Made by a program: the position numbers and the translations under genes. A stretch of 64,000 nt of DNA, taken from NCBI GenBank assembly GCA_001770415.1, contig MEQX01000069.1:16741-80740 (forward strand), read 5' to 3'. Within the stretch, counting starts at the first letter, position 1, and each line of letters begins with the position of its first letter. Positions 28,861 through 58,069 of the stretch are shown here, one piece after another. Source of the stretch: Betaproteobacteria bacterium RIFCSPLOWO2_02_FULL_63_19. Lineage in GTDB: Bacteria; Pseudomonadota; Gammaproteobacteria; Burkholderiales; SG8-39. The notes under the pieces were generated by a model. It ran no database searches. It saw nothing but the letters and a program-made list of their open reading frames with translations, and was not told where the DNA came from.

Positions 28861-31800
28861 TCAGGGCGTGCTGGGCACCCATTCGCTGATCGAGGGTTCG
28901 GTAAGGGCTCCGACCGGTGTGAGCTTTTCGTAGTTCAGGCTGTAGACATTGCGGAACAGATCGACGGTGAGTTTTCCGGCGTTGATCCCGCTGGTGCTGC
29001 TGACGTAATTGCCCTGCGGGCCGTAGATGTCCAGCGTGTAGACGTTGGAGGAATTCACCCACAGAACGTAGATGTACCCCACGAACTCCATCTGCACGTC
29101 GAGGAACGTCGCGCCTGTGCTCGCCGCGCGCAAGGGCATGATCGATGAACCGTTGTTCGAGAAGATGCGCACCGGATTGGCGCCGGTGTCGAACGCCTGA
29201 ATCCGGTTGTTGGTCTGCTCGATCACCAGAATTTCGCCTCTGGGCGTGACCGCCATGCAGGCCGGCCCCTTCAGCAGGCCCTCGCGGGTGCCCGGGCCGG
29301 CATAGGCCTGGGCGAGCGGCGCCGCGCTGTCCGCGACGGGGGTTGACGCGGGAACCAGCACCTCGAATTTCGCCAGTGCCGTATTGATGCTGATGAGCTT
29401 GCCGGTGGGATGGATCAGGAACGCGTCAGAGGCGAAGTTGAATTTGCCCACGGCAAGATTCGAATTGGGCAGGTCGATCGCCGGCGGCACGTCCACCTTG
29501 CTCAGCGTAATGCGTCGCACGATATTGCTGCCGCCGGAAGTATCGATGTAGAAATTCCGGCTGGTCGGGCTCGATCGGCTGTAGGCAAGCCGCGCCGGCG
29601 TGAGAAAGCCGCCGCCCGAGGTCTTGTAGCCGCTCTCGGGCGTCGCGGTAAACGATAGATTCGCGAACTGATACAACTGGCCGCCTGCCCCGGAGGCGAA
29701 ATCGGTCACCCCCGCGCTCGAGGCCTTCCACGCGTAGCCGATCGCACCGAACGGCTCGCTCAACGTGATGCCGACCAACTCGCACAGGTTACCCGGGGCG
29801 TTGGCGCAGACAGCGGGTTGCACCGTCGGTGCCGTCGGAGTCGCCTGCCAGACATGCTTGCCCGAGCCGTCTAGAACGATTTTCTGCTTGTGTCCGTAGG
29901 TGGTATTGCTCGTGAGCGGCACTCGGGATTCCGTGATCGTGATCGAAGCCGTGTCGACAGTGTTGTCGATCGGACCCGTGGTCCCGGTTCCTGCAAGCCA
30001 GCCATCGTTCGAGTAGAAGCACACCGACACGTTGACCTTGCCGCCGAGTGGTATTCCTTTGAACGCATGGCTGAGCGGTGCGGTCGTTGTCCCCGCCGGC
30101 ATCGGGATGATGCCGGAGTCGCGCGGCGAACTGCCGTCGCAAACCGCCGCGAGCCGGTAATGCGTCGCGGTCGCGGGAAATCCCGCCACATCGAGCGGAT
30201 CGTGGCTGATGCTGACGGTCAGATCATGCGTCGAACTCACTTCCGTCACGTAGGTCCACGGGGATTGGGCAACCTCGGCACTGGTCTCGGCGATCGTCGC
30301 AATCAGTCCCAGGGCGGCGACGGCCTGCAGCGCCACGCCTATGCCGAAGGGCAGCGTGTCCTCCGCGACGCCTTCGGCCTCGCCTGCCGCGAGGCTTGCC
30401 TGGACTTCGGCCCAGAATGCCGGCGCGGCTTTGACCATCGTGAAGAACACCGGCGCGCCGAGCGTCTTGAACACGGCGGGATCATTGTAGAAGCCGGCCA
30501 GCGCGGTATCGACGATCGCCTGCATGAATATCTGCGCGGTGCCGATCAGTAGTTTGGTCGCGGTGGTCATCTTGGCGGCAAATGCCGGAAACGCGGCCGT
30601 TGCCGCCAGCGCGAGAAACAGCCCCGGAAGTGCAAGGTCGACGACCACGGTCATCACCTCGCCGGGGCGCGTCGTTTCGGGATAGCTGTTGGTTCCGCTC
30701 CCCAGACCGCCCGACAGAATCTGAATCGACGCCGCGCTTTCGGGCACCCGTACGGTGAATGACCAGTGGTTCTCCGCCACAACCGGTATTTCCGGAAACG
30801 GTATTCCCATGACTGCGAACGGTTGGTTCAGCAATGTCAGAAAACCGTCGTAGGTTCCGTTGAAGCCGGTCGAAAACTGCCCGTGGATGTCGGCGGGCAG
30901 CTCCGCGAGCGCGATGGGCCTGCCGTCGCCGTCGAGAAAGCGGACATAGAGTCCCAGATAACGCAGCCACGTGTTGTAAACGGTGAAGCTGAGCGTGCGC
31001 GAGAGCGCGTTGGTCGCAGTGTCGAGGCTCGATGTCCCCGTGACATCGGTGACGCGGTACCCGTTGCCCGAGGACAGATCGCGTGGCGTCCAGGTCACGC
31101 CAGGTGGCGACGCCGCGAACGACGCCGGGCGCGCGCTGGGCGTCGCGACGGATGCGGGCGGCGCGGCGCTGTTGACGACCCATAGCTTGCCTTTCAGCAC
31201 CTGATTGTCCCGGGTATTGGTTTGCATGCCGGCAACGTTCCCGCCGAGCACCGGGTCATTCTTGATCTTGGGCAGAATGCTTTGGATCGCGGCACCGGTG
31301 AGGCGCAGGGTTTCCTCGGAGTGGTGGGTGAAATACAGCTTGTGGCCATTGGACGCGAGCTTGGGCTGGCCGGTGTCGGGGTCGATGCACGGGACCTGCG
31401 TGGCCCAGCCGCCTGTCTCCGTGGCCGGACCCTGGCGGTACAGCGACTGCGCCAGCGCGAGGATGTTGGCGTCGGCGCAGACGATGACCTGCTGCACGTA
31501 GCTCAGCGTGGCCGCATCGAACGAACAGATCTCGGGATGGTTGCAGACCAGCGACACGGCGTGATCAAAATAGCTCTTGTAGCGCAGGTAGATGCCGCCC
31601 GCGCAGTATCCGCCGGACGTTGTCGGGAGTTCCCGCTGCCGCATTGCCGGCGCCGCTGGGCCCACGCAGGTACTGAACTCTCCGAGGAACGTACCGTCGC
31701 CGGCGCTCGCGCAGGATATCGCCAGCGCCTGGCTTACATTCGCGGCAGCGGTTGAAGGCACGTGGTAGAACATGCCGTGCATCGACCAAGCGGTTGCGCT

Positions 31801-32190
31801 TCCCGCTTTGGGCATTCCTTTCACGTACAGCAGCTGCGGGCCGTTCGCTGGCAGTGGGATGTTCTGCGCGCCGTGGGTGATGTTCGCGTCGCTGATCTGG
31901 GCGAGTCCCGGTTCAGCCGACTTCAGCGCCGCGAGCTGTGCATCGGTGATGGCCGATACCGGATGATGCTTCGTGCCCGCCACCAGAAAGAAGTTCGTGT
32001 TCGGGTCGGCGTTGGAAAGGTCGAAATAGTAGTCGCGCCACTCGGCGCTGGTCTCGGCCCGCGGATCGCTGCCGATGATGCCGCAGCTCGCGAGCCACGG
32101 ACCGACGCCGGCGATCAGGCCGGTGCCTGCGGCCTGCTTGAGGAAACGCCGGCGCTGCGGCCTGTAAGGATCGTTCCGGTTCCGCATCAT
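28861..32190 (-). CDS. Very large Tat-exported lipoprotein of unknown function with C-terminal NHL-like segment
   Basis: RRRFLKQAAGTGLIAGVGPWLASC (twin-Arg plus lipobox); C-terminal GPACMAVTPRGEILVIEQTNNRIQAFDTGANPVRIFS. Confidence 0.8.
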   Translation of the reverse strand: MMRNRNDPYRPQRRRFLKQAAGTGLIAGVGPWLASCGIIGSDPRAETSAEWRDYYFDLSNADPNTNFFLVAGTKHHPVSAITDAQLAALKSAEPGLAQISDANITHGAQNIPLPANGPQLLYVKGMPKAGSATAWSMHGMFYHVPSTAAANVSQALAISCASAGDGTFLGEFSTCVGPAAPAMRQRELPTTSGGYCAGGIYLRYKSYFDHAVSLVCNHPEICSFDAATLSYVQQVIVCADANILALAQSLYRQGPATETGGWATQVPCIDPDTGQPKLASNGHKLYFTHHSEETLRLTGAAIQSILPKIKNDPVLGGNVAGMQTNTRDNQVLKGKLWVVNSAAPPASVATPSARPASFAASPPGVTWTPRDLSSGNGYRVTDVTGTSSLDTATNALSRTLSFTVYNTWLRYLGLYVRFLDGDGRPIALAELPADIHGQFSTGFNGTYDGFLTLLNQPFAVMGIPFPEIPVVAENHWSFTVRVPESAASIQILSGGLGSGTNSYPETTRPGEVMTVVVDLALPGLFLALAATAAFPAFAAKMTTATKLLIGTAQIFMQAIVDTALAGFYNDPAVFKTLGAPVFFTMVKAAPAFWAEVQASLAAGEAEGVAEDTLPFGIGVALQAVAALGLIATIAETSAEVAQSPWTYVTEVSSTHDLTVSISHDPLDVAGFPATATHYRLAAVCDGSSPRDSGIIPMPAGTTTAPLSHAFKGIPLGGKVNVSVCFYSNDGWLAGTGTTGPIDNTVDTASITITESRVPLTSNTTYGHKQKIVLDGSGKHVWQATPTAPTVQPAVCANAPGNLCELVGITLSEPFGAIGYAWKASSAGVTDFASGAGGQLYQFANLSFTATPESGYKTSGGGFLTPARLAYSRSSPTSRNFYIDTSGGSNIVRRITLSKVDVPPAIDLPNSNLAVGKFNFASDAFLIHPTGKLISINTALAKFEVLVPASTPVADSAAPLAQAYAGPGTREGLLKGPACMAVTPRGEILVIEQTNNRIQAFDTGANPVRIFSNNGSSIMPLRAASTGATFLDVQMEFVGYIYVLWVNSSNVYTLDIYGPQGNYVSSTSGINAGKLTVDLFRNVYSLNYEKLTPVGALTEPSISEWVPSTP

Positions 32191-32245
32191 GTCTTCCCTC
32201 CGTTTCGCACAGCGTTTCCCATTGATCGCGCCTCGCGGTCGGCTT

Positions 32246-35068
32246 TTACCAGCAGGTGTTGAGCGGCACGGCGAAGCCGTCGCACAGCGGGTTGACCGTG
32301 CAGCTCGAATTGGTGTGGCTCGAATTTGCGAGCGGCGTGATCGGCGAGATCCAGGCCGCATCGCTGCACGGCCCGGCAGCGCCGTTCGGGCAGCCGTTGC
32401 TCGCGTCCGTTGCCGGACGGTGCGCGCTCGCGTACACGTACTGAATGCAGGTCGGCGCGAACTGCGTGCCGGCGACGCACGCGCCGCTCGCGTTGGCGAC
32501 CGTCAGTCCCGGAAAGCCCGTGTATTCGTTGTTCAGGTTGGTCTGGATGCAACTCGCGCTGGGGTCGCTATCGACGTACGCGCTGGTGAAATTCGCGTTC
32601 TGCACCTGGGCGTTGGTGAAGTCCGCGCCCTGCAGGAAGGCGAAGCTGAAATCGGTCGCGGCGCCGGTGGCCGCATTGCGATTGAGGTTGGCGTCCCTGA
32701 ACGAGGTGCCAAAGAGCAGGGCGCCGGAGAAGCTCGCGCCGTTGGCGCGGGTGCCACTCATGTCCACGCCGGCCAGGTAGGCGTTGGCGAAGCGGGTGCT
32801 GTCCATGCTCGCGCGGTAGGCGCTCGCGCAGGTGGGCTTGGCGTAGGTGTCGCACGCCGGTTGGCAGGACTGTGGCGTTGCGCTGTAGAAGCTCGCATAG
32901 CTGAAATCCGAACCATCGAGGTTGGCGCCGGACAGGTTGGCATTCTTCAAGTGGGCGCCCGAGAGGCTGGCCGCAACGCCCAAGTTGCTCGCGTTGAGCG
33001 TCGCGTGGCACAGGTTCGCGGATTCGAGGTTGGCGTAATTCAGCTTCGCGCCCTGCAGCGTCGCGAAGCGCAGGTCGGCGTTGCTCAGGTTCGAATTCGA
33101 CAACTGCGCGCCCGTCAGGTTGGCGTGCTGCAGCTTGACGCCTGCGGACAGATCGAGCTTCTGCATATCGACACCGGCCAGGTTGCAGTATTCGCAGCGG
33201 TCGGTTTGAGTCAGAATGGTTACCGAATCCGTGCCTAGGCGGATGGAACCCGGCGCGAAATTGGCGTCGGCGAAACGTACACAGCCCGACTGGTTGAATA
33301 GGTGTGAGGTGCCTTGGTATTCGTAGCCGGTGTAGACCGTTGCAGTGGTTTGCGGGCCAAGTTGTAGCGAGTTCATGAATCCGCCGAGAATGGACAACTG
33401 GTCGATCGGGACCGTGGGTTGCGGATAGGGCAGGCTGATGCCTTCTGAAACCATCGCCGCGCCGGTGCAATTGGCGCCGGAGAACATCGCCATTTCGCCG
33501 ACTGCCAGCTTCCAGGCTCCGCCCGAATCGGCCATGGAGGCGGGCATGCCATTCGGAAAATAGCGAAAACCTACGCGTATCTCAGGCGGCTGATAAAATC
33601 CCCATATCCCGACGTCGTACGCACTCGTGAGTTGAGTCAGGAGTGCAGGCGACAGCCCATAAATTATCTGGGACGAAAGCAGTTGGATGCTGTTGTCCGA
33701 GGGATTCGACGTCCTGTCCGAGTAGCTCGCGATCGACAGTGTGATCGGCGTGAACTGGCCGGCGTCGGCGATCTGCGACTGCGCAGGATTGCTCGGGTTG
33801 AACGCCAGCGGTGCGACCCAGAGCGGCTCCGGCCAGGGCTGCGAGACTTCGAGCGATACTCTGCCCCCGCGGTAGGTTTGATAGTCCAGCGCATAGGTAT
33901 GATGCTGCGGATCGACAGATTTGCCGGAGCCATCTGAGGCCGGCGAGGTGGTGCAGTAGTACGGCAGTCCGAAAGTACTGAGCGATCCGTCGCCGTATCG
34001 CGTGACCTCGAAAAAGTTCGCGGCATCGAACAGGTAGCGCGTCCGCGTCGTACTGTCCCACGGCCAGAAGTAGGGAGAAATCTGGGCGACTGGCTGGATC
34101 TGGCCCCTGCACCCGAATGCGACCCGGTATCCTGAAGTCGGGTCCACGTTCCCGCCGATATCATTGGCGCCGGTGAAACTCAGATAATTGCCGCTGCGCG
34201 TGTCATACACGGCCCAGTATTCCGGGTGGCTCGGGTCGGAGGCGGCTCGCACGCGCGGTGCGGCCGCACGCGCGGAGGCGAGCATCGGGACAGGGGGCGG
34301 CGCTGCGTGATGTACGAAGATCGTTCGCTTCGATCCCGAACCGCCGTAGGTGTGCCGCATGGTGTAGATGCCTGTGCTTGCGCCGAAATCGATGCAGGGG
34401 GCGCCCGCTTTCAGGCTGAACACCTCTTGGCCGGCGGCATCGAGCAGCTGCAGCGTGTCCGCGCCTACGTCCTGCGCGTCCATGCAGAACTTGTACGTCT
34501 TGGTGGCAAGCTGCAGCGGAAAGCTCTGCGTGCCGGTTTCCGGCGCTGACCGCAGAACAACATGATGGGATTCGGTTGCGACCAGGCTGGAATTGGCCTT
34601 GAAATCCTTCAGCGTCAGCGCCGACAGCTCCTGCAGCACGGTTTCCCAGGCCCAGGAATCGCCGCTCAGGTGCAGTACGACGTCGCCGTAGACCCTGGTG
34701 TCGATGTGCAGCCGGGATATCCTGATCCTCGCGTCGGCGGGGCGCCAGTCGGACGTGATGGTCGCGTTCACCGGGCTCAACAGCGCCGCCTTCAGGAAAT
34801 CTTCACGCGTCACCGAGCGCCGGAGGCCGACCGATTCAACATTCCAGCGGCCGCTTTTTCGCAACAGCAGCACGACGTCGGGATAGACCTGGTCGCCCAC
34901 CTGCAGGCCCGGAAGCGCAAGGCGCTCCGCATCGCTCTGGAACGTCAGGATGGAGTCCGCGATCGGCGGCGAAGAGTACGTCCCTGACGAGCCTGTAAAG
35001 CCGCAGGAAGCGACGTAAAGGGTGATCGCTGCAATGAGCAGCCCGGGCGCGGTTTTCGGCATGTCCAT
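32246..35068 (-). CDS. Lipoprotein with betagamma-crystallin-like segment and pentapeptide repeats
   Basis: Lipobox LYVASC; ATVYTGYEYQGTSHLFNQSGC...GSIRLGTDSVTIL; LDLSAGVKLQHANLTGAQLSNSNLSNADLRFATLQGAKLNYANLESANLCHATL repeats. Confidence 0.82.
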   Translation of the reverse strand: MDMPKTAPGLLIAAITLYVASCGFTGSSGTYSSPPIADSILTFQSDAERLALPGLQVGDQVYPDVVLLLRKSGRWNVESVGLRRSVTREDFLKAALLSPVNATITSDWRPADARIRISRLHIDTRVYGDVVLHLSGDSWAWETVLQELSALTLKDFKANSSLVATESHHVVLRSAPETGTQSFPLQLATKTYKFCMDAQDVGADTLQLLDAAGQEVFSLKAGAPCIDFGASTGIYTMRHTYGGSGSKRTIFVHHAAPPPVPMLASARAAAPRVRAASDPSHPEYWAVYDTRSGNYLSFTGANDIGGNVDPTSGYRVAFGCRGQIQPVAQISPYFWPWDSTTRTRYLFDAANFFEVTRYGDGSLSTFGLPYYCTTSPASDGSGKSVDPQHHTYALDYQTYRGGRVSLEVSQPWPEPLWVAPLAFNPSNPAQSQIADAGQFTPITLSIASYSDRTSNPSDNSIQLLSSQIIYGLSPALLTQLTSAYDVGIWGFYQPPEIRVGFRYFPNGMPASMADSGGAWKLAVGEMAMFSGANCTGAAMVSEGISLPYPQPTVPIDQLSILGGFMNSLQLGPQTTATVYTGYEYQGTSHLFNQSGCVRFADANFAPGSIRLGTDSVTILTQTDRCEYCNLAGVDMQKLDLSAGVKLQHANLTGAQLSNSNLSNADLRFATLQGAKLNYANLESANLCHATLNASNLGVAASLSGAHLKNANLSGANLDGSDFSYASFYSATPQSCQPACDTYAKPTCASAYRASMDSTRFANAYLAGVDMSGTRANGASFSGALLFGTSFRDANLNRNAATGAATDFSFAFLQGADFTNAQVQNANFTSAYVDSDPSASCIQTNLNNEYTGFPGLTVANASGACVAGTQFAPTCIQYVYASAHRPATDASNGCPNGAAGPCSDAAWISPITPLANSSHTNSSCTVNPLCDGFAVPLNTCW
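32560..33200 (-). repeat. Pentapeptide-repeat coding tract (approximate limits)
   Basis: Repeated A(N/D)LXX pentads within 32246..35068. Confidence 0.75.
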
Positions 35069-39420: not shown

Positions 39421-39834
39421 ACCGGTTCGCTATTTGACGGTGTAGATCAGGTTATACCTGCCATTAATCAGCATTTCATTCCACGGCACGGTGACGCCAG
39501 AATCGACCGTGCCGAGGCCGTAGCCTGCATACACCTGCGCGCCGATGAGCGTGCTTAGATTCAGCTCACCTGCGATGTCGATGGTAATTGTCCCTAGAGT
39601 GACGGGTGAGGCGAAATAAGCGGGGTTCTGCGGATCATACGGCACCCAGGTCCCGCCGGAGTTCTTGAGGTAAACGGCGTTCCCGTACTGCGCCGGAAGC
39701 ACGACCGCAACGTATATCGTCCCCACTTTACTTTGATCATTTCCCGAGGCAACGATCGTTCCGACAACGGTCTTGGAAGTGATGTCGCCTGTCGCCGTAC
39801 CCGACGCGCTGGCGTTTGTGTTGGCAGTCGCGGT

Positions 39835-39955
39835 GACGGTGCAGTTCTGGCTGATCGCGCCGGTGGTGAATGTCTTGCCGTCGGCGCCGAGCGTGCCGGA
39901 ACAGCCGCTCACGCTGTTCACGACGTAGCCGCTCGCGGGAGTGACGGTGAAGCTG
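39835..39955 (-). repeat. Internal repeat 1 of large exported protein
   Basis: Encodes SGCSGTLGADGKTFTTGAISQNCTVTA; nearly identical DNA at 41127-41247. Confidence 0.85.
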
Positions 39956-41126
39956 GTTGTTCCGCCTGAGGCGACCGTCACCGGGCTGGTCTTGTCATAG
40001 GTAACGCGGTCGCCGCCGAGCGTGACCTCGTAGCCGCGCGGGGCCGAACATTGCGCACTGGCGCCGAGCGCACTCTGGCAACTCCAGGTGTACTTGTCGG
40101 TGGCGCTGGTGACTTGCGACGGCGTTGCACCGTCCGCGCAAAGTTGGCCCTCTGGTGTGCCGAAGAATTGCACCTCGGAGAGCCCCGCCCAGGTAGCGGA
40201 ACCATAGGTTGAGAGCACTTTGAACGTGATAAACCGTCCCTTTCCGCTGACCGAATAGGCTTTGCCTAGGCCGTCGCTTTCTTCTGCGAACGTAGTTTTC
40301 ACCGTGCTCGAAACGGTGGAGCCGTCATCGCCCAAGAACAAAACATCCACGTCTTTTATGCCGCGTGTTGTATACAAGGTCTGGCCGTCAAACTCAAAGT
40401 AATTCCATACATGAATGGAAGTCACGTTATGAACGCTGCCGAGGTCGAAGGTGATTGTGAGCGACCCGGCCCCAGTCGTAAAGCTGCCTAACCACATATG
40501 GCTAGCAATCTTGTCATGTGTTGATCCTGTTAATCCAATTCCTCCGATGGCCGCATTCGCGGGTCGCGACGAAAGCTCATGATTCGCACTGGCTTTGACC
40601 ACTGAAATCATTCCCGATGTGTTGTTGTTGCCTTCCGGGGCGCTCAGTAGCGGCTCGCTGCCGCTCGCCGGTCCGCACAAGGACGCAGCGTCGCCTCCGA
40701 CGGTGTGCACCAGTTTAAAGGTGCCGTTCTTCAGCATGTCGTTCCATGGGGCGACAGCGCTGGTATCCGGCGCACCAATGCCGTAGCCGAGATAAATCTG
40801 CGTACCCGCCAGAGCGCTCAAGTTGAGGCCGGTTACGACATCGACGCTGTGCTGTCCCAGAGTGACGGCACCGGCGTAAAACGCTGGATTCGCCGCGTCG
40901 AATTTCACCCAGCCACCGCTCGCGTTCTTGAGGTAGACGCGATCGGGCGTGTCCAACGGCGAATCGGCTGCGAACCCCGAGGGCAGGACCGCGGCGACAT
41001 AGATGGTTCCTGTCTTGCCTTGATCGCTCCCCGAGGCGGTGATTTCTGCCGTTATGGTCCGGGAGGTGATCTCTCCAGTTGCTGTCGCTTTGAAGCCTGC
41101 GGGACGGATGATGGCAGACGCGGTGA

Positions 41127-41247
41127 CGGTGCAGTTCTGGCTGATCGCGCCGGTGGTGAAGGTCTTGCCGTCGGCGCCGAGCGTGCCGGAACAGCCGCTC
41201 ACGCTGTTGACGACGTAGCCGCTCGCGGGAGTGACGGTGAAACTGGT
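41127..41247 (-). repeat. Internal repeat 2 of large exported protein
   Basis: Near-identical to 39835-39955. Confidence 0.85.
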
Positions 41248-43502
41248 TCCATCTGAGGTGACCGTCACCGGGCTGGTCTTGTCAAAGGTCACATTTGCGC
41301 CGGCGAGCGTGACGGAATAGCCGCGTTTGGCGGAACAAACCGCTGTGGTGCCGCCGTTTGAACCTTGGCAACTCCAGTTGTACTGGCTTGTAGTGTCCGT
41401 GACCTGCGTGGGGTTGCCGCTCGCGCAGAGGTTGTCTGCCGGCGCGCTCGTCCACAGCGGTGGGTTATCCGGGTTGCTACCGTGATATCTGTCCGCCGAG
41501 CCGCAGGCGCCGTAGACGGGGACGGCTGCGACATTCGTGTTTACCCCAATGCAGGACACGTCCGACTTGTTATTGGACGCATCCTCCGCCATCAGGCAGA
41601 CGGTATACACGGGATTCGAAAACGTGCTCGCCGACAGTCCAGCGATGGAGAAATTCGTCGGGGTATTGGCGGTCATCGTCCCGCTGCCCGAGGACAGTCC
41701 ATCCTGGCCAAGTTTGACTTGATCCGCGGATACGCTTGATTGCGGTAAGGGATACGGAGCGACAAACACGATCCAGTATCCCGTTGCGTTCTCATTACTG
41801 GTGCTTGTCAGCATGGTGCTTGTCAGCGTGGTGCCGGTGCTGGTCGTGGCCGATACGTCAGTACCGCTCAGCGAGGGCGCTGTCGTGTCTGGGGCGGCAG
41901 TCGTGGTGAACGCAACGCAGCTCACGCTCGACTGGTTCGTGGATCCATCCTCTGCCATCAGGCAGACGGTGTAGCCGGTACTCGCCGACAGTCCAGTGAT
42001 CGAAAAATTCTTGGGCGTGCTGGCGGTCATCGCGCCGCTGCCCGAGGTTACGCCGGCGCTCCCGGTGCTGTTCTGCCCCGCTTTGACCTGCGCCTTCGAT
42101 GGCGCCGTGGCGCCGGTACCCGACAACACGACCCAGTAGCCCGTTGCGTTCTCATCGCTGGTGCTTGTCAGCGTGGTGCCGCTGCTGCTCGTTGCCGACA
42201 CGCCGGTGCCGCTCAGCGTGGGCGCGGTGGTGTCTGCGGCGGCGGTCGTGGTGACATCGACGCAACTGACGCTTGAGAGGTTCGGGATCCCGTCCTCGGC
42301 CATGATGCACAGCGTGTAGCCGGTGCTCGCAGAGAGCCCCGTGATCGAAATATCGGTCGGAACAGCGGGGATCATCGGCGCGTTGCCGGAGGCTAGCGCT
42401 GCCCCACCGATGCTGTCGAGACCCGCCTTGACCTGCGCGGCGCTTGGCGCTGTCGCGCCGGTTCCCGCCAGCTCGACCCAGTAGGCGACAGCCAGCTGGT
42501 CGCTGGTGCTCGAGAGCGTCGTGCCGCTGCTGGTCGTCCCCGAAACCCCGGTGCTGCTCAGTACCGGCGCGTAGGGGTCGGAAAACACCAGGTTGTCGAT
42601 GACGATGTCGGACCACGCCCCGCCGCCTTGCTTGGTTACCGTAAATCCCGTGACCCCGGTCCAAGGGGTTCCGCCGGTGAAGCTGACGCTCGTGCCGCCA
42701 GTTGTCGCGGTGGCATCGACGGTGCTACCGCTTCCGCCGATCTGGGTGAACGTGAACGTATCGCACGTGGTCCGGCACCCCAATACCAGCGATTGCAGAT
42801 CGATCTTGGTATCGAACGCGAAGGTAAGCGTTGGGGGGAAGGATTGATGAAATCGGTGAGATCGTTGGCCAGATTATTGGTGCCGTTCATCCCCCAGTCG
42901 CTTACCAGCAGATTGGCGCCGGTGTCGAGGGTAGCGCCCAATGTGACACCGAAGGCGGTATCGTTGACTTCGGCCGATCCGCCGCCGATCGCCGATTCGA
43001 AGGTGAACGTCGGTGAGACGACGGCCCGGGCGAGCGGAGCCGCGCCGAGCAGGGAAAGAACCAGAACCGCGAAAAGAAAACGCGCCCGATGAACCAGAAA
43101 CGCGCGGATTACCGACGAAAATTGCCCGCTGCAACGATGCATCAAACGCACGCCGTTCGACATTTCACTCTCCTGGTGAATATTCTAATAATTCGCGCGT
43201 CGGAACTTTGCTCCTCCAGGCGCGATGTCCTTCCTGCAACCGCATTGCACAGCCGGCCGACCGCTTCGCAAACAACGGCCGAGCCTACTCACAAAGTGGG
43301 GTAGTACGGGACTATCTTGTTGCTGCGAACGCCTTATATCAGAAACGGCCGGCAGCGTCACTTGCCGCGTGTCGAAAATGACGTTGTCATGCAATGGGTT
43401 GTGCCCGGTTGACGGGCGACGTGCCGTTCCGATTTCGCCGAGCGCTGGCCAGACCGGAGCGTGGCCGACGGCGCGCGTACGGAGTCCTCGATCCGATTGC
43501 GC

Positions 43503-43520: not shown

Positions 43521-43667
43521 CGCGTCACCGCGGGTGGTCCATGATTGCATCTTCCCGCCGGAGGAGGACTGCACGCGGCACCGATCGATCGCCGCCACCA
43601 GCGTCGAGGTTGCACGGGTCCGGCGATGCGAATACGTTTCCGTTCACCAATCAGGAGAATGCATACC

Positions 43668-44684
43668 ATGGCAACGCACATTGTGAAAATCGGGGCCGTG
43701 CTGCGGACCTTGGCCGTGACGACTCTGCTTGCGGCCGCCGCCGTCGGCACGGCTGCGCAGGCGCAGACCGCAGGCGGCCCGCCGAAAGACCGGATCTTCC
43801 TCACGATCAACAGCGGTCCGCAGGGCTCGGGCTGGTACGTGGTCTCGGGGCTGATCGCCGAGCAGATCGAGAAGACGTTCCCGAACGCACGCGTGACCAA
43901 CACGCCGGGTCAGCCGGTCGCCAATACCCGCGCCGTCGACGCGAAGCGGGCGGACATGGGCACCGAATTCGGCTGGCTGGCGCTCACCGCGATGGAGGGA
44001 ACGAAGCCTTACAAGAAGCCGGTACACAACGTTGCGGCGATCTCCGGCCTGTACCCGACGCACTTTCAACTGTTCGCGCGCGCCGATTCGGGCATCAAGT
44101 CCTACGCCGATCTCGCCAACAAACGCATCGCCGTGGGCACCGCTGGAACCTCCGGGGACCGGATGACGCAGCGGATCCTCGCGTTCTACGGACTCAATTA
44201 CGACAAGATCCGTCAGAACGGCGGCAGCGTCTCGTTCAGCGCGTACAACGACGCCAAGCAGTTGATGAGCGACGGCCACCTCGACGCGTTCACGATCTCC
44301 TCGACCAAGCCGAACACCCAGGCCGTGGAACTGCAGCTCACGCAGGACATCCGGCTCATCCCGCTGGAGGAGAAGATCGTCGACCAGTACGTCAAGAAAT
44401 TCCGCGGTTTCGGCAAGAGCCAGATCGCCGCAGGAACCTACAAGAACCAGCCGCAGGCCGTCTGGGCGATCAGCGTCCCAGCACTCATCACCGTGCGCAA
44501 GGACCTGCCCGAAAACGTGGTCTATTGGATCACCAAGGCGTGGTGGGACCACGCGAGTCAGATCGGCAAGGCCTACAGCATGGTCAAGGACGATATGGTC
44601 GCGAACGTCGCGCTCAAGGATCTCGTGGTGCCGCTGCATCCGGGCTCCGCGCGGTACTTCAAGGAGATCGGTGTCCTGAAGTAG
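43668..44684 (+). CDS. TAXI-family TRAP transporter solute-binding protein (1)
   Basis: Signal peptide; INSGPQGSGWYVVSGLIAEQIEKTFPNARVTNTPGQPVANTRAVDAKRADMG; LHPGSARYFKEIGVL C-terminus; RBS AGGAG. Confidence 0.9.
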   Translation: MATHIVKIGAVLRTLAVTTLLAAAAVGTAAQAQTAGGPPKDRIFLTINSGPQGSGWYVVSGLIAEQIEKTFPNARVTNTPGQPVANTRAVDAKRADMGTEFGWLALTAMEGTKPYKKPVHNVAAISGLYPTHFQLFARADSGIKSYADLANKRIAVGTAGTSGDRMTQRILAFYGLNYDKIRQNGGSVSFSAYNDAKQLMSDGHLDAFTISSTKPNTQAVELQLTQDIRLIPLEEKIVDQYVKKFRGFGKSQIAAGTYKNQPQAVWAISVPALITVRKDLPENVVYWITKAWWDHASQIGKAYSMVKDDMVANVALKDLVVPLHPGSARYFKEIGVLK

Positions 44685-44773: not shown

Positions 44774-46675
44774 GTGCCGGAGCTGACCCAGGAAGCGAAG
44801 AAGGGCGCTGAGGAATCCGCGCTCAGCCGCGGATTCACCGCGGTGTTCCGCACCCTGCTGATCGCCACCTCGCTGTTCCATCTGTGGACCGGCGTCATGG
44901 GGCCGTTGGAGAGCTGGCTGCACCGCTCGCTGGCGCTGTCGATCTATCTTTCGCTGCTGTTCCTGCTGCCGTTCTACAAGAAGCCGGTCACCTGGCTGGC
45001 GCTCGTGCGAGTGGCGCCGCTGGTGCTCGCCAGCATCGCCATCGGCGCCTACATCTGGGTGATCTACGACGATCTTCCCGACAAGCTAGGCAACCTGAAC
45101 AACTTCGACATGGCGTTCGGCGGCCTGCTGATCGTCGTCGTGCTGATCGCCGTCAAGCGCGCGATGGGATGGTCGCTGGTCATTCTGGCCCTGGCCTTCC
45201 TGATCTACACCCGATACGGCCCCTATTTCCCCGGCATTTTCGGCCACCGCGGCCTGCCGCTCGCCGCCATCGTCGAGATCATCTTTTTCAACATGGACGG
45301 CATCTACGGATTCCCGATCGGAATCATGTCCACGTTCGTATTTCTGTTCATCCTGTTCGGCGCGTTCTTCGAGAGCATCGGCCTCACCGATCTGCTCGCA
45401 AGCCTTGCGCGGTACGTGGCGCAGAGGGTGACCGGCGGGGCGGCGGTGGCCGCCGTGTTGGCCAGCGCGATCGTCGGCAGCGTTTCGGGCAGCGCGATCT
45501 CCAATGTGATGGTCACCGGCGCGTTCACGATTCCGATGATGCGGCGGGCCGGCTACAGGCCGGAAATGGCGGCGGCGATCGAAGCATCGGCCTCCACGGG
45601 CGGGCAGATCATGCCGCCGGTCATGGGCATCGCCGCCTTCGTCATGGCCGAGGTCATCGGCATTCCCTACGTCCAGGTCGTGGTCCTGGCCCTGGTGCCG
45701 GCGCTGCTGTACTTCCTGGGGGTCGGCTGGAGCGTCTATTTCGCGGCCAAGCGCGCAGGCATAGGCATCGACCGCGAAAGCGCGCCCGAATCGCTGGGGC
45801 GGATCATGCGCTCCAAGGGATTTCTGATCCTGCCGTTGATCGCGGTCGTGTTGGCGCTGATGACGGGAGCCAGCCTGATGCGCGTCGCGATGGTGGGCAT
45901 CGTCGCGTCCGTACTCGTCGGGCTGGTCAATCCGCACAAACGCTTTCGCCTGCGGGAGTTCCTGGACTCGCTCGAGAAGGGGGCCGAGGTCGCCGTTTCG
46001 ATGGGCGCGGTGCTGGCATGGGTCGGTTTGACGGTGGGGCTGATCGCCGCCAGCGGTTTCGGTTCACTGGTGGCAGGGACGCTCGTGCGGTCGGTCGGAG
46101 AAAACCTGATTGCAATTCTGCTGATCACCATGCTGATCAGTCTGGTGCTCGGCATGGGGATGACCACGGTCGCGGTATACGTGACCCTCGCGATCACGGT
46201 AGTTCCCGGCCTGGTCGAACTCGGCGTCAACCCCTACGTCGCCCACTTTTTCGCGTTCTATTTCGGCGTACTGTCGTTCGTGACCCCGCCGGTCTGCATC
46301 GCCACCTACGCGGCGGCCGGCCTTGTCGGTGCCAACCCGACCAAGGCCGGGTGGGAAGGACTCGCGCTGACCGCGTCGGGGTTTCTGGTACCGTTTGCAG
46401 CCGTCTATCAGCCCGCGCTGATGCTGCAGGGAAGCGCGGTGGAAGCCGTCTCCGCGATCGGCACCGCATTCTTCGGCGTCGTCGCGCTCAGTGCCGGGCT
46501 GCAGGGGTATTTCTTCAGCAGAGCAGGAAAGTGGGAACGCGTGGCGCTGGCCGTGGCGGGCATTCTATTGATCGTTCCGAACCTGGCCGTTTCGGCGGTG
46601 GGCGCGTGCCTGTTCGCCGGCATCGGCTGGCTGCAGTACCGCTCGTTGCGCCGCCGCGCGGTGCCGACGAATTGA
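44774..46675 (+). CDS. TRAP transporter fused permease (1)
   Basis: GTG start; GSVSGSAISNVMVTGAFTIPMMRRAGYRPEMAAAIEASASTGGQIMPPVMG; many TM helices. Confidence 0.93.
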   Translation: MPELTQEAKKGAEESALSRGFTAVFRTLLIATSLFHLWTGVMGPLESWLHRSLALSIYLSLLFLLPFYKKPVTWLALVRVAPLVLASIAIGAYIWVIYDDLPDKLGNLNNFDMAFGGLLIVVVLIAVKRAMGWSLVILALAFLIYTRYGPYFPGIFGHRGLPLAAIVEIIFFNMDGIYGFPIGIMSTFVFLFILFGAFFESIGLTDLLASLARYVAQRVTGGAAVAAVLASAIVGSVSGSAISNVMVTGAFTIPMMRRAGYRPEMAAAIEASASTGGQIMPPVMGIAAFVMAEVIGIPYVQVVVLALVPALLYFLGVGWSVYFAAKRAGIGIDRESAPESLGRIMRSKGFLILPLIAVVLALMTGASLMRVAMVGIVASVLVGLVNPHKRFRLREFLDSLEKGAEVAVSMGAVLAWVGLTVGLIAASGFGSLVAGTLVRSVGENLIAILLITMLISLVLGMGMTTVAVYVTLAITVVPGLVELGVNPYVAHFFAFYFGVLSFVTPPVCIATYAAAGLVGANPTKAGWEGLALTASGFLVPFAAVYQPALMLQGSAVEAVSAIGTAFFGVVALSAGLQGYFFSRAGKWERVALAVAGILLIVPNLAVSAVGACLFAGIGWLQYRSLRRRAVPTN

Positions 46676-46692: not shown

Positions 46693-47223
46693 ATGTCCGC
46701 GCCCGACGACGAGATCGCCTATCACCTGAGCTTCCGCGATGTCATCCGCGTGCTGCAACTGGTCGACGCGAGCCCGTTCCTCGACCTGAAGCTGGAGATC
46801 GGGGCGCTGAAAGTGCATGTGACGCGCGAGCGGGGCGGGGAGGCGCCTGCGCCGTCCGCCGCAGCCGACACCGCGCAGTCGAAGGGCGCGCGTGGCGAGT
46901 TCGCCGAATCGCCGGCGGAACCGCTCGCCCCGGAGCGTCGCGAGGTGCCGGAGGGCACCCCTGTCGTCGCGCCGCTCGCCGGCACGTTCTACCGCGCGCC
47001 GTATCCGGGCCAGCCTCCGTTCGTGGAAGTCGGATCGGCCGTCGAAAAAGGTGCCGTGGTGGGCATACTCGAAATCATGAAGCTGATGAATAACGTGCTC
47101 GCGCCGTGCGCCGGGGTGATCGCGGCGATCTGCGCCGAGAACGAGGCGTTCGTCGAAGTCAATCAGGTACTGGCGATCGTCGCGCCGCGCGACCAAGCAC
47201 GTGGGTCGGAGGGGGCGCGTTGA
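46693..47223 (+). CDS. Biotin carboxyl carrier protein (AccB-like)
   Basis: VVAPLAGTFYRAPYPGQPPFVEVGSAVEKGAVVGILEIMKLMNNVLAPCAGVIAAICAENEAFVEVNQVL. Confidence 0.9.
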   Translation: MSAPDDEIAYHLSFRDVIRVLQLVDASPFLDLKLEIGALKVHVTRERGGEAPAPSAAADTAQSKGARGEFAESPAEPLAPERREVPEGTPVVAPLAGTFYRAPYPGQPPFVEVGSAVEKGAVVGILEIMKLMNNVLAPCAGVIAAICAENEAFVEVNQVLAIVAPRDQARGSEGAR

Positions 47224-48701
47224 AGCCGCTGCGCGTTCTCGACGAGAGCCTGCGCATGGGCCAGCAGGCGCTTTGGGCCACGCGCATGAAGACGAAATGG
47301 ATGCTGCCGATCGCGCCGGTCATGGACCGCGCGGGTTTTTACCAGGTGGCGGCCATGGCGCCGGTGTCGTTCGAGACCGCGGCGATGTATCTGTACGAGA
47401 ATCCCTGGGAGCGGCTTCGGCTGCTGCGCCGGCACATGCCGCATACCAGTTTCGACTTCCTGGTGCGCTCGAGAAACGTGGTCGGGTGGGATCTGAAATC
47501 CAACGACGTGGTGGAACTTTTTCTGCAGACGCTCTACGCGACCGGCATTCACGGCATCAAGGTGTTCGATGGCCTGAACGACTACCGGAACGTCGCTTTT
47601 CACCTGCAGAAAGGCAAGGAACTCGGCTTTCACGTCAAAGGGCTGCTGACATTTACCGTAAGCCCGGTGCACACGGACGAGTATTTCGTGGGCAAGGCCC
47701 GCGAGCTGGAAGCGCTGGGCGTGGACGCCGTCATCATCGCAGATCCCTGCGGCGCCATGCTGCCGGATCGGGCCCGCACGCTGATCGGCCGCGTGCGTGC
47801 CGAATTGCCGGCGATGGAACTGCACTTCTCAACGCACCCCAACAGCGGCGTTTCCACGCCCTGCTATCGGGAGGCCATCCGGCAGGGCATCGACGTGCTG
47901 TGGGGAGCATGTACGCCTTTGGCGAACGGACACTCGTTTCCGCCGCACGCGACGATCGTGCAACTGGCCGCGGAAGAAGGCCGTGCGATCGAACTCGACG
48001 AACGCTGCCTGCGGGAAATGGATGACTGGTTCTACTGGGCTGCCTATCAGGAGCATCGACCGATCGGCAAACCGGCGGAGTTCGATCCCGTCGCCTACGA
48101 GCGAACCATCGCCCATCAGATCCCCGGCGGCATGATGTCCAACCTGGAGAGCCAGTTGGCCGGGCTCGGCATGGCGCACCGGATGCCCGAAGTGCTCGAA
48201 GAGGCGGCGCGCGTCAGGGAGGAACTCGGCTACCCGGTCATGGTCACGCCGTTTTCGCAGTTTGTCGGCGTTCAGGCGACACTGAACGTCGTGACCGGGG
48301 ACCGGTATTCGTCGGTGCCGCGCGAAATGGTGCTGTATTGCCGGGGGCACTACGGCCAGTCGCCGGGGCCGATCGATCCGAATGTGCTGGACCGGGTCGT
48401 GGGTGATCTGCCGCCGATCGACCCGACCGCGCATTATCACGACAACACGATCGAGAAAGCTCGCGCCGCGAGGGGCGATCTGACCGACGAAGAGCTGCTG
48501 ACGACCTTGTTTCTGAGCCCTGCCGCGCTGGAGACATTCACCAAGAACAGAAAGCCCATCGAGTGGGACGCGGGCGCCCGCGCGCCTCTGCTGGCCCTGA
48601 TCGAACAGTTGTGCAGACGACCGAAGCTGCGCGGGGTCGAGGTCCGCTACGCGGACGTCAGCCTGACGCTGTCCACCGAATCCGGCGGTCCGGCGAGCTG
48701 A
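47220..48701 (+). CDS. PycB/OadA-like carboxyltransferase-family protein, divergent active site
   Basis: LRVLDESLRMGQQALWATRMKTKWMLPIAPVMDRAGF, ENPWERLRLLRRHMP, VFDGLNDYRN, C-terminal PGPIDPNV...ADVSLTLS; TTG start overlapping the BCCP stop. Confidence 0.85.
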   Translation: MKPLRVLDESLRMGQQALWATRMKTKWMLPIAPVMDRAGFYQVAAMAPVSFETAAMYLYENPWERLRLLRRHMPHTSFDFLVRSRNVVGWDLKSNDVVELFLQTLYATGIHGIKVFDGLNDYRNVAFHLQKGKELGFHVKGLLTFTVSPVHTDEYFVGKARELEALGVDAVIIADPCGAMLPDRARTLIGRVRAELPAMELHFSTHPNSGVSTPCYREAIRQGIDVLWGACTPLANGHSFPPHATIVQLAAEEGRAIELDERCLREMDDWFYWAAYQEHRPIGKPAEFDPVAYERTIAHQIPGGMMSNLESQLAGLGMAHRMPEVLEEAARVREELGYPVMVTPFSQFVGVQATLNVVTGDRYSSVPREMVLYCRGHYGQSPGPIDPNVLDRVVGDLPPIDPTAHYHDNTIEKARAARGDLTDEELLTTLFLSPAALETFTKNRKPIEWDAGARAPLLALIEQLCRRPKLRGVEVRYADVSLTLSTESGGPAS

Positions 48702-54653: not shown

Positions 54654-56573
54654 TCATACGCGCGTCGAGATCGATCTTAGACGCATCAGTTTCGGCGAGA
54701 TCGCGACCGCAGTCGCGCCTAGACCTGCAGCGGGGAAGACGATTCCCGGAGCGATCAACAAGAGGCCACCGGCCAGGACAACCAGTCGCTGAAACGAATT
54801 GAGCGAGCCGAAAAGATATCCCTGTATTCCCGCTGCGACCAGAGCCGAACCGACAAAGGCCGTTCCGCCGGCCAGGGCAACTTGGCCTACAGAGCCGTTC
54901 ATCAACAGCCTGTCGTTGAAGACAAACGCGAACGGGATCAAATAGGCTGCAATGCCGATCCGCATTGCCTCCCAGCCAGTCTGCCACACCTTGCTGTTTG
55001 CGATGCTTGATGTGACGAAAACGGCGATGCAGGTCGGTGGCGTATAGAAAGACGCGAGCCCCCAATAAATGACGTAGAGATGCGCCGCCATTTCCGAGAC
55101 GCCCAGGCGCACTAATGCGGGTGCCATCAAGGTTGCGAGAGTCACGTACGCCGGCGTCGCGTCGAGCCCCATACCAACGACCAGACTGACGAGCCCGACG
55201 AACACTAGGGTCAGAAGCAAATTGCCGCCCGCAAGTTCGACGATGAAGCGAGAGACTTTTATTCCTACGCCAGAGAGTTCAAGCGCGCCGATCATGATTC
55301 CAACGGCCGCGGTAATCGACGCGACGGTGATCCAGCGATGAACTCCCTCGTCGAACGCCGATACGATTCTCCGCGGAGTCAACCAAAGCGAGGGGTCGCG
55401 CGAAACGAAGCTGGTTGCCACGACAAATCCGCACGCATAAATGCCGGCCATTCCGGGCGGATAAGAGCTGATGATCAGGAAATAGACCAGGGCAGCGACT
55501 GGAATCATGTAATACCAGCCGCGTCTGAATACCGGCCAGAAACGCGGCAGCTCGGCTTCTGCGAGCGCCTTTATCCCGGCTTTTTTCGCCTGCAGATGTA
55601 CCGAAACGAAGACGATCAGAAAATAGAGGAAGGCCGGAACGAGCGCAGCCGCGACCACCGCGGAATAGGAAACCTCGATCCACTCCGCCATAAGGAAGGC
55701 CATCGCGCCCATGACCGGCGGAAGGATGATCCCGCCGGTAGACGCGACCGCCTCGACCGCTGCAGCGAAGGCGGGTGTATAGCCGATCGACTTCATCATC
55801 GGAATCGTGAAGACGCCGGTGGTGGCGGCATTGCTGGAAGGCGACCCCGAAATCGAGCCGAACATGGCACTTGCCACAACCGCCGCCTTGGCGGGGCCTC
55901 CGCACAACCTTCCAGTGAGCGCCAGAGCCGTGTCCATGAACCAGCGGCTTGCGCCCGCGGCCTGCATCAGCGCGCCAAAGATGAGGAATACGATGATGAT
56001 ATTGGCGGCGATGCCGAGGGGAAGTCCGAATATGCCGGCGCTTCCGACGTAGGAACTGTAGAGCAGGCGATGGAGCGGATAGCCGCGGCCATACAAGAGC
56101 CCGGGCAGATATCTCTGGAAGATCGTAACTAAAACGAAAAAGAGAATAATGACCGGTAATGCCCATCCGGTCGTTCGCCGCACCGCCTCAAGCAGGGGAA
56201 TTACCAGCATCATCGACAGGACCATGCCGGCTGTATCCAGATAGCCGTACTCGGCATAGTTCAGAATGCTCTGATAGGAGAATATGACGAAACACGTGCT
56301 GACGAGAGTAAAACCCAGCAGGAGATAGTCGTACCAACGCACCCGTGGTGGCCGCCGTTCGTCGTTGGCGCCACCTACCTGCCGCGCTCGATGCGCCGGC
56401 AGCGTCAGAAAGATCAACGTCATCGCCGCGCTGAGGCTAACGGCGAGGTGAATCTCGTTCGGAACGAATACACCAAACCATGTCGGAAACTGGGCCACCA
56501 CCACGATGTGGTAACCCGCAATGAGCGTCGTCAGCCCGATCAGAAACGCTGGGCGCCGCACCGACTTACGCAA
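54654..56573 (-). CDS. TRAP transporter fused permease (2)
   Basis: FGSISGSPSSNAATTGVFTIPMMKSIGYTPAFAAAVEAVASTGGIILPPVMGAMAF; many TM helices. Confidence 0.93.
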   Translation of the reverse strand: MRKSVRRPAFLIGLTTLIAGYHIVVVAQFPTWFGVFVPNEIHLAVSLSAAMTLIFLTLPAHRARQVGGANDERRPPRVRWYDYLLLGFTLVSTCFVIFSYQSILNYAEYGYLDTAGMVLSMMLVIPLLEAVRRTTGWALPVIILFFVLVTIFQRYLPGLLYGRGYPLHRLLYSSYVGSAGIFGLPLGIAANIIIVFLIFGALMQAAGASRWFMDTALALTGRLCGGPAKAAVVASAMFGSISGSPSSNAATTGVFTIPMMKSIGYTPAFAAAVEAVASTGGIILPPVMGAMAFLMAEWIEVSYSAVVAAALVPAFLYFLIVFVSVHLQAKKAGIKALAEAELPRFWPVFRRGWYYMIPVAALVYFLIISSYPPGMAGIYACGFVVATSFVSRDPSLWLTPRRIVSAFDEGVHRWITVASITAAVGIMIGALELSGVGIKVSRFIVELAGGNLLLTLVFVGLVSLVVGMGLDATPAYVTLATLMAPALVRLGVSEMAAHLYVIYWGLASFYTPPTCIAVFVTSSIANSKVWQTGWEAMRIGIAAYLIPFAFVFNDRLLMNGSVGQVALAGGTAFVGSALVAAGIQGYLFGSLNSFQRLVVLAGGLLLIAPGIVFPAAGLGATAVAISPKLMRLRSISTRV

Positions 56574-56652
56574 GCCTCATCGGGTGCCCTGGCGCTGGCT
56601 TCGCAACAGCAGACGATTCGGGCCCATGCCCACCAAACGCACTATTGAACGC

Positions 56653-57648
56653 TTATCGCTTCATCAGTGCTTGCTGATTCGCTTCCAACGTCGACGTCCA
56701 CACGCCTTTCTCCTTGAAATACCGTATAGCACCGGGGTGGAACGGCAGCGACACGTGCTTTAGCGTGTTGTCCAAATTGTAATGACGTCCCAAGCGCTGA
56801 TAAGACATTAGTTCCTTGGTATTTTCGAGAACTGCTTTGACGACCTTGTAGACTGTCTCCTCGGATACCCCGGGCCGCGTCAGGAGGTACGTATTCATCG
56901 CAATCACATTGACGTCCTCGGACTGATTCATGAACGTCCCCTTCGGCAAGGTCTGGCCCCACATCACAGAGGGCAGCTGCTTGAGCATTTCATCCCGTTG
57001 CGCCGCAGGCAGATACAGAAAATCGATGATCCCGTCTTTCATCGGCTTTTGAATATTCGCGGCCCCGCGCCCAAAAGGCAGAAGCGCTGCGTCTACGCTG
57101 CCCGCCGCCAGCGCCTTGAGCGCCGCTCCCGTTTGTGTAGTGGCTACTTGGTTGACGCTGGACGGATTAACCTTGAATTGCTTCAGCATGACGCCCATGA
57201 TCATATGGACATCAGGAAGCGCCGGTCGCTTGGCAACAACCGTCCGGCCCGCAAGATCTTCAACACGCTTGATAGCAGCGCTTTTCCTGAGAAACAACCA
57301 GCGCAAGCTCGGGTGCCCCTGAGCGACGAGCTGAATGTCCACTGGCTTCTTGAAATTGACGATTCCTTTATACCCGTTGACCGCGGCGAATGAATTGGCG
57401 AGCGCGAACTCGATATTTCCGGCAGCCAGCCCCCTGACGTTGGCTCCTGAACCGCCTACCGCTTCGACCGTAATGTTGATTCCGGCGTGCTTCTGAATGA
57501 CCTCGGATGCCCCGACCGCCAACACGTAGATGCTGCTTCCAACGCTAGACGTACCGAAGCGGATCGCTTGCTGCCCGGCAGCAGGCAAGGCCATCGACAA
57601 AACGATTCCTGTCGACAGGGCAATGAATGTCTTGAAGAGTTTGCACAT
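56653..57648 (-). CDS. TAXI-family TRAP transporter solute-binding protein (2)
   Basis: Signal peptide; IRFGTSSVGSSIYVLAVGASEVIQKHAGINITVEAVGGSGANVRGLAAGNIEFALA; LPFHPGAIRYFKEKGVW; RBS GGAGG. Confidence 0.9.
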   Translation of the reverse strand: MCKLFKTFIALSTGIVLSMALPAAGQQAIRFGTSSVGSSIYVLAVGASEVIQKHAGINITVEAVGGSGANVRGLAAGNIEFALANSFAAVNGYKGIVNFKKPVDIQLVAQGHPSLRWLFLRKSAAIKRVEDLAGRTVVAKRPALPDVHMIMGVMLKQFKVNPSSVNQVATTQTGAALKALAAGSVDAALLPFGRGAANIQKPMKDGIIDFLYLPAAQRDEMLKQLPSVMWGQTLPKGTFMNQSEDVNVIAMNTYLLTRPGVSEETVYKVVKAVLENTKELMSYQRLGRHYNLDNTLKHVSLPFHPGAIRYFKEKGVWTSTLEANQQALMKR

Positions 57649-58069
57649 GTCAGGCCTCCGTTGGCTAGCTGTCTGGGATACCATGGCCATTCGCGGTCGT
57701 ACAGGCAGACTCACTCGACGTTCCGATGCTCATCGGCGCAACGCATTGGAACCGCAAGAGCCCTCCCCTGATCACCGACGCGCAAGCGGCGGAATACATT
57801 CGCTCAGACGACGAGCGCGGTGAACTTCGAACGTTTGGCCCTGATGGGCCGAATGAAAGTGACAAAAAAGTGTCTCATATCCGGGAACTGCTTACAAGCG
57901 ATGACAAACCCAAGCTTGCTCGTCGTAAGATCCTCGTTGATGCGCGTGGACTTTGCGAGGCTCGTGGGTGGCGAGTGTTGAATATGCATCTGCCAGATGT
58001 TCGTTCGAGTCTCCAGCCTTGCTGGACGATTGAATTGTCTCTTCACTTCAGCTAGAGGAGAAATACGCG

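Follow-up and report, generated by a model that had tools for sequence, protein, structure and literature searches.

A pyruvate carboxylase-type carboxyltransferase lineage with replaced canonical metal-site residues

Introduction

The carboxyltransferase (CT) reactions of pyruvate carboxylase (PC), OadA and transcarboxylase 5S have a metal and a carboxylated lysine that are regarded as core machinery. In the PC of L. lactis, the cation ligands are Asp534, carboxylysine 703, His732 and His734, with Arg533 also listed, and the water of the cation contacts the keto oxygen of pyruvate. Furthermore, Arg606 binds pyruvate, Thr867 is located between pyruvate and biotin, and Ser870 contacts biotin (PMC9581989). 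For OadA, the lysine was proposed to act as a relay for the carboxyl group (PMC2881705). A search of a library of open-access papers returned none on metal-less PC-type CTs and none on a CT with a NicX/M29-like partner.

The present analysis concerns a stretch of 64,000 nucleotides (the window, meaning the whole DNA analyzed) from Betaproteobacteria bacterium RIFCSPLOWO2_02_FULL_63_19. Its new element is a lineage lacking the canonical metal site inside an already known family.

Results and Discussion

Gene and Family Assignment

The features of the locus are collected in Table 1. The reading frame of the CT gene was open over its whole length. The biotin-carrier gene lies upstream, and its TGA stop overlapped the TTG start codon of the CT gene. 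The protein scored 123.5 bits with PF02436 (PYC_OADA), for which the cut-off is 27, whereas PRK09282 (pyruvate carboxylase subunit B) scored 395.8 bits, below its curated cut-off of 402, and TIGR01108 (OadA) scored 353.8 bits, below its cut-off of 756.5. The nearest PDB entry in a single-sequence search was 5ks8, the pyruvate carboxylase beta subunit (E=4e-82). With a six-sequence profile this match rose to E=4e-100 and covered CT residues 1-445. Judged by its domain and an alignable CT barrel, the product is a PycB/OadA-type carboxyltransferase.

Table 1. Features of the locus, its orthologs and the other CT domains of the host.
Feature	Position or source	Strand	Remark
TAXI-family TRAP solute-binding protein	43665..44684	+	TIGR02122, 207 bits
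TRAP transporter fused permease	44774..46675	+	TIGR02123, 565 bits; upstream, same gene run
Biotin carboxyl carrier protein (BCCP), 176 aa	46693..47223	+	PF00364, E=3e-14; biotinylation motif EIMKLMN
Carboxyltransferase (CT)-like protein, 493 aa	47220..48701	+	PF02436, PRK09282 and PDB 5ks8 matches
M13 codon	47256..47258	+	metal Asp in canonical enzymes
K114 codon	47559..47561	+	clade-invariant; K missing at this column in 44/44 others
A174 codon	47739..47741	+	carboxylated Lys in canonical enzymes
S204 codon	47829..47831	+	first metal His in canonical enzymes
NicX/M29-like protein (c9), 342 aa	48764..49792	+	profile match to NicX 7cn3, E=9e-12
L058, ortholog	Betaproteobacteria MAG RIFCSPLOWO2_02_FULL_62_17
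L059, ortholog	Ideonella MAG
L060, ortholog	Rhodoferax MAG
Other CT domains of the host	contigs C10, C41, C105, C89, C58, C26, C63 (G000)		L002-L008, L043, L067

Metal-Site Residues

In the window CT, the metal Asp is replaced by Met13, the carboxylated Lys by Ala174 and the first His by Ser204, and the second His is kept as His206. The respective motifs were LR-M-GQQ against LRDGHQ, IADP against IKDM, and HFSTH against HLHAH. The protein thus lacks the tetrad of Asp, carboxylated Lys, His and His that is characteristic of PYC/OadA-type carboxyltransferases. The motifs aligned without gaps to PDB entries 5ks8, 2nx9 and 1rqb and to 44 homologs, in single-sequence and profile searches alike, which rules out a misalignment concealing intact ligands. 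An earlier note, made by eye, had aligned the protein with PycB/OadA and had described three of the four metal positions as changed to Met, Ala and Ser, with one His of the pair retained. The kinship was confirmed by PF02436 and the 5ks8 profile, the three replacements and the retained His held against all the structures and homologs named above, and no alignment brought back Asp/Lys/His/His.

Orthologs and Phylogeny

Close relatives were sought in 84,980 species genomes, and three loci were found (L058, L059 and L060), with 73-81% identity to the window CT. All three have the same Met, Ser and second His, and also the Ala where it is readable, L058 being masked at position 174. The dN/dS between the window CT and the three orthologs was 0.08-0.14, with high dS. 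The window CT is a maintained protein under purifying selection, because the orthologs share its residues and the dN/dS is in this range.

In a maximum-likelihood tree of 55 homologs, the window CT was placed in a clade of 11 proteins (support 100/99), with 44 proteins outside. The carboxylated lysine was missing in all 10 readable members of the clade. Four members, one of them masked, have the pattern M/A/S/H; three have N/S/H/H (L061, L062 and L068), and the remaining four (L010-L013) have D/(A,I,V)/(I,Y)/H. Outside the clade, the pattern was D/K/H/H in 42/44 and D/E/H/H in 2/44. The ligand changes are not due to chance, because Asp and both His were invariant among these 44 homologs and the lysine position was occupied only by K or, twice, by E. 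The simplest reading of these patterns would be a single loss of the lysine, followed by separate changes at the other ligands that became fixed in each subclade.

The two CTs with Glu at the lysine position and D/H/H kept are L053 9924-11990 (+) and L065 6428-8452 (+). Their Glu suggests that the gene itself can encode a substitute for the carbamate of the carboxylated lysine, and they form a natural contrast to the clade without the canonical metal site. In addition, the host genome encodes nine further PC-type CT domains, eight stand-alone and one in pyruvate carboxylase, which were all canonical at the metal tetrad where read. This is an unusual expansion of an uncharacterized group.

The CT is rare. 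At E<=1e-110, 6/98 genomes of the family, including its own, and 3/399 genomes drawn from the order had a match; in the draws from the class and from the phylum (at 1e-105), its own genome alone matched. One further match was located on an alphaproteobacterial plasmid. The distribution over families suggests horizontal transfer. Viral contigs, which were searched to deepen the alignment, gave one partial relative and no more thereafter.

Retained and Gained Residues

According to the alignment, R12, Q16, R83, T343 and S346 were intact in the window CT and invariant in the clade. R12, R83, T343 and S346 correspond to Arg533, Arg606, Thr867 and Ser870 of the L. lactis enzyme. Q16 is the Gln of the RDxHQ motif, which we take to have a role at the substrate or biotin.

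Moreover, the clade has gained residues of its own. E9, W90 and K114 were found in 11/11 members and in 0/44 proteins outside, E52 in all 11 members compared with two of the 44 others, and R217 in 10/11 members and none outside. Positions 52 and 114 are E and K across the clade, whereas they are D and R in canonical PycB and PC. In an AlphaFold model of the window CT, which is poor (mean pLDDT 47, built from 3 sequences), K114 falls in a strand predicted to belong to the barrel, with the lost lysine two strands further on.

Gene Neighborhood

The genes of the window are on one strand in the order TAXI, fused TRAP permease, BCCP, CT and c9. The MKL lysine of the BCCP was intact; the BCCP scored 94 bits with TIGR00531, under the cut-off, and its conservation (46-57%) was below that of CT and c9. 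The biotin carboxylase gene AccC adjoins the CT module in L058, L059, L060, L062 and L069, while in the window no AccC is adjacent. The host genome has three AccC-like matches elsewhere, one of them within pyruvate carboxylase. The order in L058-L060 was AccC-BCCP-CT-c9 with different transporters in front, namely TctC in L058 and L059 and BCAA-ABC in L060. The N/S/H/H cassettes (L062, on a Sulfitobacter dubius plasmid, and L069) comprised c9, a second BCCP-like protein, AccC, BCCP and CT. The second BCCP-like protein lacks a biotinyl-lysine motif, with MRK in L069 (6372-6818) and no matching lysine motif in L062 (9771-10127). Among the carriers, Sulfitobacter dubius DSM 109990 is available in culture. 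The D/x/x/H members (L010-L013) have thiolase neighbors, and some also have AMP-ligase, AccC and BCCP.

The window also contains a second pair of fused TRAP permease and TAXI protein about 6 kb downstream (54654-57714, -). Very long proteins, among them one containing pentapeptide repeats, are encoded at 28861-35068 and 39430-42783 (-); at 1e-8, Pfam gave no match for those of 1166 aa and 1117 aa.

Partner Gene c9

The product of c9 had no match in Pfam or NCBIfam, and its similarity to NicX was detected in a PDB search with a 7-sequence profile. The gene is part of the CT cluster or adjoins it in 7/7 members of the M/A/S/H and N/S/H/H subclades, with L066 among the N/S/H/H loci that have it; around the four D/x/x/H members, no c9 was detected. 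The iron of NicX, a 2,5-dihydroxypyridine 5,6-dioxygenase, is bound by His265, Ser302, His318 and Asp320 (PMC7910607). By profile alignment, window c9 has Glu268 and a non-Ser residue where NicX has His265 and Ser302, followed by His311 and Asp313, and it also has E198 and H294. This set does not match the Fe ligands, which rules out c9 as a NicX dioxygenase. The His-x-Asp pair is present in the window group and missing in L062, L066 and L069. The residue pattern of c9 presumably resembles that of M29 aminopeptidases. Moreover, plasmid relatives of c9 are annotated 'aminopeptidase' and are sited in catabolic clusters. On balance, c9 more probably encodes a metal-dependent hydrolase.

Proposed Function

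The CT likely still transfers a carboxyl group, because its substrate and biotin residues are intact, the BCCP gene overlaps its own, and the orthologs add a biotin carboxylase. We therefore lean, with somewhat better than even confidence, towards the CT subunit, with its canonical metal site gone, of a biotin-dependent carboxylase composed of several subunits (AccC-type biotin carboxylase, BCCP and CT). The biotin carboxylase would put CO2 onto the biotin of the BCCP, and carboxybiotin would then swing into the CT barrel, where the carboxyl group would pass to a substrate bound by R12 and R83. As in pyruvate carboxylase, T343 would carry a proton back and forth between the substrate and biotin, with S346 in contact with biotin. 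The Mn/Zn site by which pyruvate carboxylase polarizes the keto group would be missing. The electrostatic job of the metal might be unneeded with a substrate having a more acidic C-H, or with an N-H substrate; alternatively, it might have passed to clade-specific charges, with K114 together with E52/E9 as candidates. That this is a natural PC-type CT lineage without any metal, in which the Lys/Glu pair substitutes or the substrate removes the need, is held more tentatively, at a little under even confidence. The substrate would probably be imported by the TRAP-TAXI transporter, and the NicX/M29-like c9 would process the product. As a whole, the system is most likely a catabolic uptake operon with biotin-carboxyl transfer minus the canonical metal.

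The description of a conserved scaffold with a rewritten centre in the earlier note was borne out by the fold match and by the Met, Ala and Ser shared among the close homologs, none of which was canonical. Its suggestion of a new chemistry is more aptly phrased as a carboxyl transfer that would proceed without the canonical metal.

Among the other explanations, the best placed, though unlikely, is that a metal is still used and is held at or near the old site by rebuilt ligands (H206 with H202, C177, H238 and H243). H206 is retained throughout the clade. In the M/A/S/H group, every readable member has H238, H243 and C177, which are almost absent elsewhere. However, the N/S/H/H and D/x/x/H subclades do not share these residues, and each would need a new metal site of its own. 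Moreover, the CTs of L053 and L065, which swapped K for E yet kept the three other ligands, are what retention of the metal looks like.

Another reaction linked to carboxybiotin ranks next and is likewise unlikely: this could be transcarboxylation, the decarboxylation of a beta-keto acid, or an N-carboxylation whose product c9 would hydrolyze, the last modelled on urea carboxylase paired with allophanate hydrolase. The pairing of CT with the hydrolase/dioxygenase-like c9 and the window's lack of an adjacent biotin carboxylase agree with such a reaction, and a non-ketone acceptor would make the metal dispensable. However, at least five of the orthologous clusters have AccC next to the CT module, which favors ATP-driven carboxylation.

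A non-catalytic scaffold or regulator, that is, a pseudo-carboxyltransferase binding BCCP, is improbable. Three metal ligands are lost, and a related cassette type has the degenerate second BCCP-like protein, as might be expected of such a role. However, the remaining catalytic residues are all invariant, purifying selection acts over the whole protein, and no second intact CT was seen in the subclade clusters as a target of regulation. The non-enzymatic role raised in the earlier note is thus not favored, in view of the substrate and biotin contacts kept, the overlapping BCCP gene and the AccC of the orthologous operons. Finally, a gene decaying in a single genome or a faulty assembly, for which the nine canonical CT domains of the host might speak, is very improbable and was ruled out by the low dN/dS, the intact frame and the same substitutions in independent assemblies of three other genomes.

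A conserved clade that has lost the lysine and then, in separate steps, other ligands, and has kept all the biotin and substrate contacts, is a natural experiment on the purpose of the metal and on the need for a lysine relay. It also points to an uncharacterized substrate and a rare, mobile catabolic module.

Comparison with Known Carboxyltransferases

The CT fold and the PF02436 domain are common to the window CT, OadA and transcarboxylase 5S (2nx9 and 1rqb). These enzymes have a metal site, whereas the window CT lacks the canonical one, and the proposed relay lysine of OadA is missing from it. No OadB or OadG pump genes were seen in the flanks of the CT gene.

PycB, the beta subunit of the two-subunit pyruvate carboxylase (5ks8), shares with the window CT the fold, a full-length alignment and the R, Q, R, T and S catalytic positions; the identity to canonical PycB was 36-38%, and the biotin carboxylase is separate in both. 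In PycB the BCCP is the C-terminal domain, whereas in the window system it has its own gene. Furthermore, the window CT differs in its lost metal ligands, in its partner genes and probably in its substrate.

Stand-alone, uncharacterized CTs of the PycB-like type that come with AccB/AccC, CoA transferase or thiolase, among them those on plasmids of Cnuibacter, Caballeronia and Rhodococcus, have the same gene module and 36-39% identity to the window CT. The canonical clusters carry CoA transferase and thiolase (Cnuibacter) or have acetoacetate decarboxylase nearby (Caballeronia), and these genes suggest that the general, underlying function of the wider CT group is a ketone-type carboxylation. 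In the Rhodococcus pyridinivorans plasmid (L065 2656-10004), the CT is accompanied by a pyruvate-phosphate-dikinase-like protein, AMP-ligase, BCCP, AccC, an OB-fold protein and thiolase, which resembles a cluster for ATP-driven ketone activation. The stand-alone CTs probably carboxylate ketone-like substrates in a biotin-dependent manner. Their metal tetrad is still D-K-H-H (in Rhodococcus, D-E-H-H), whereas the window CT keeps neither, and their partners are thiolases and ligases, whereas that of the window CT is the NicX/M29-like protein.
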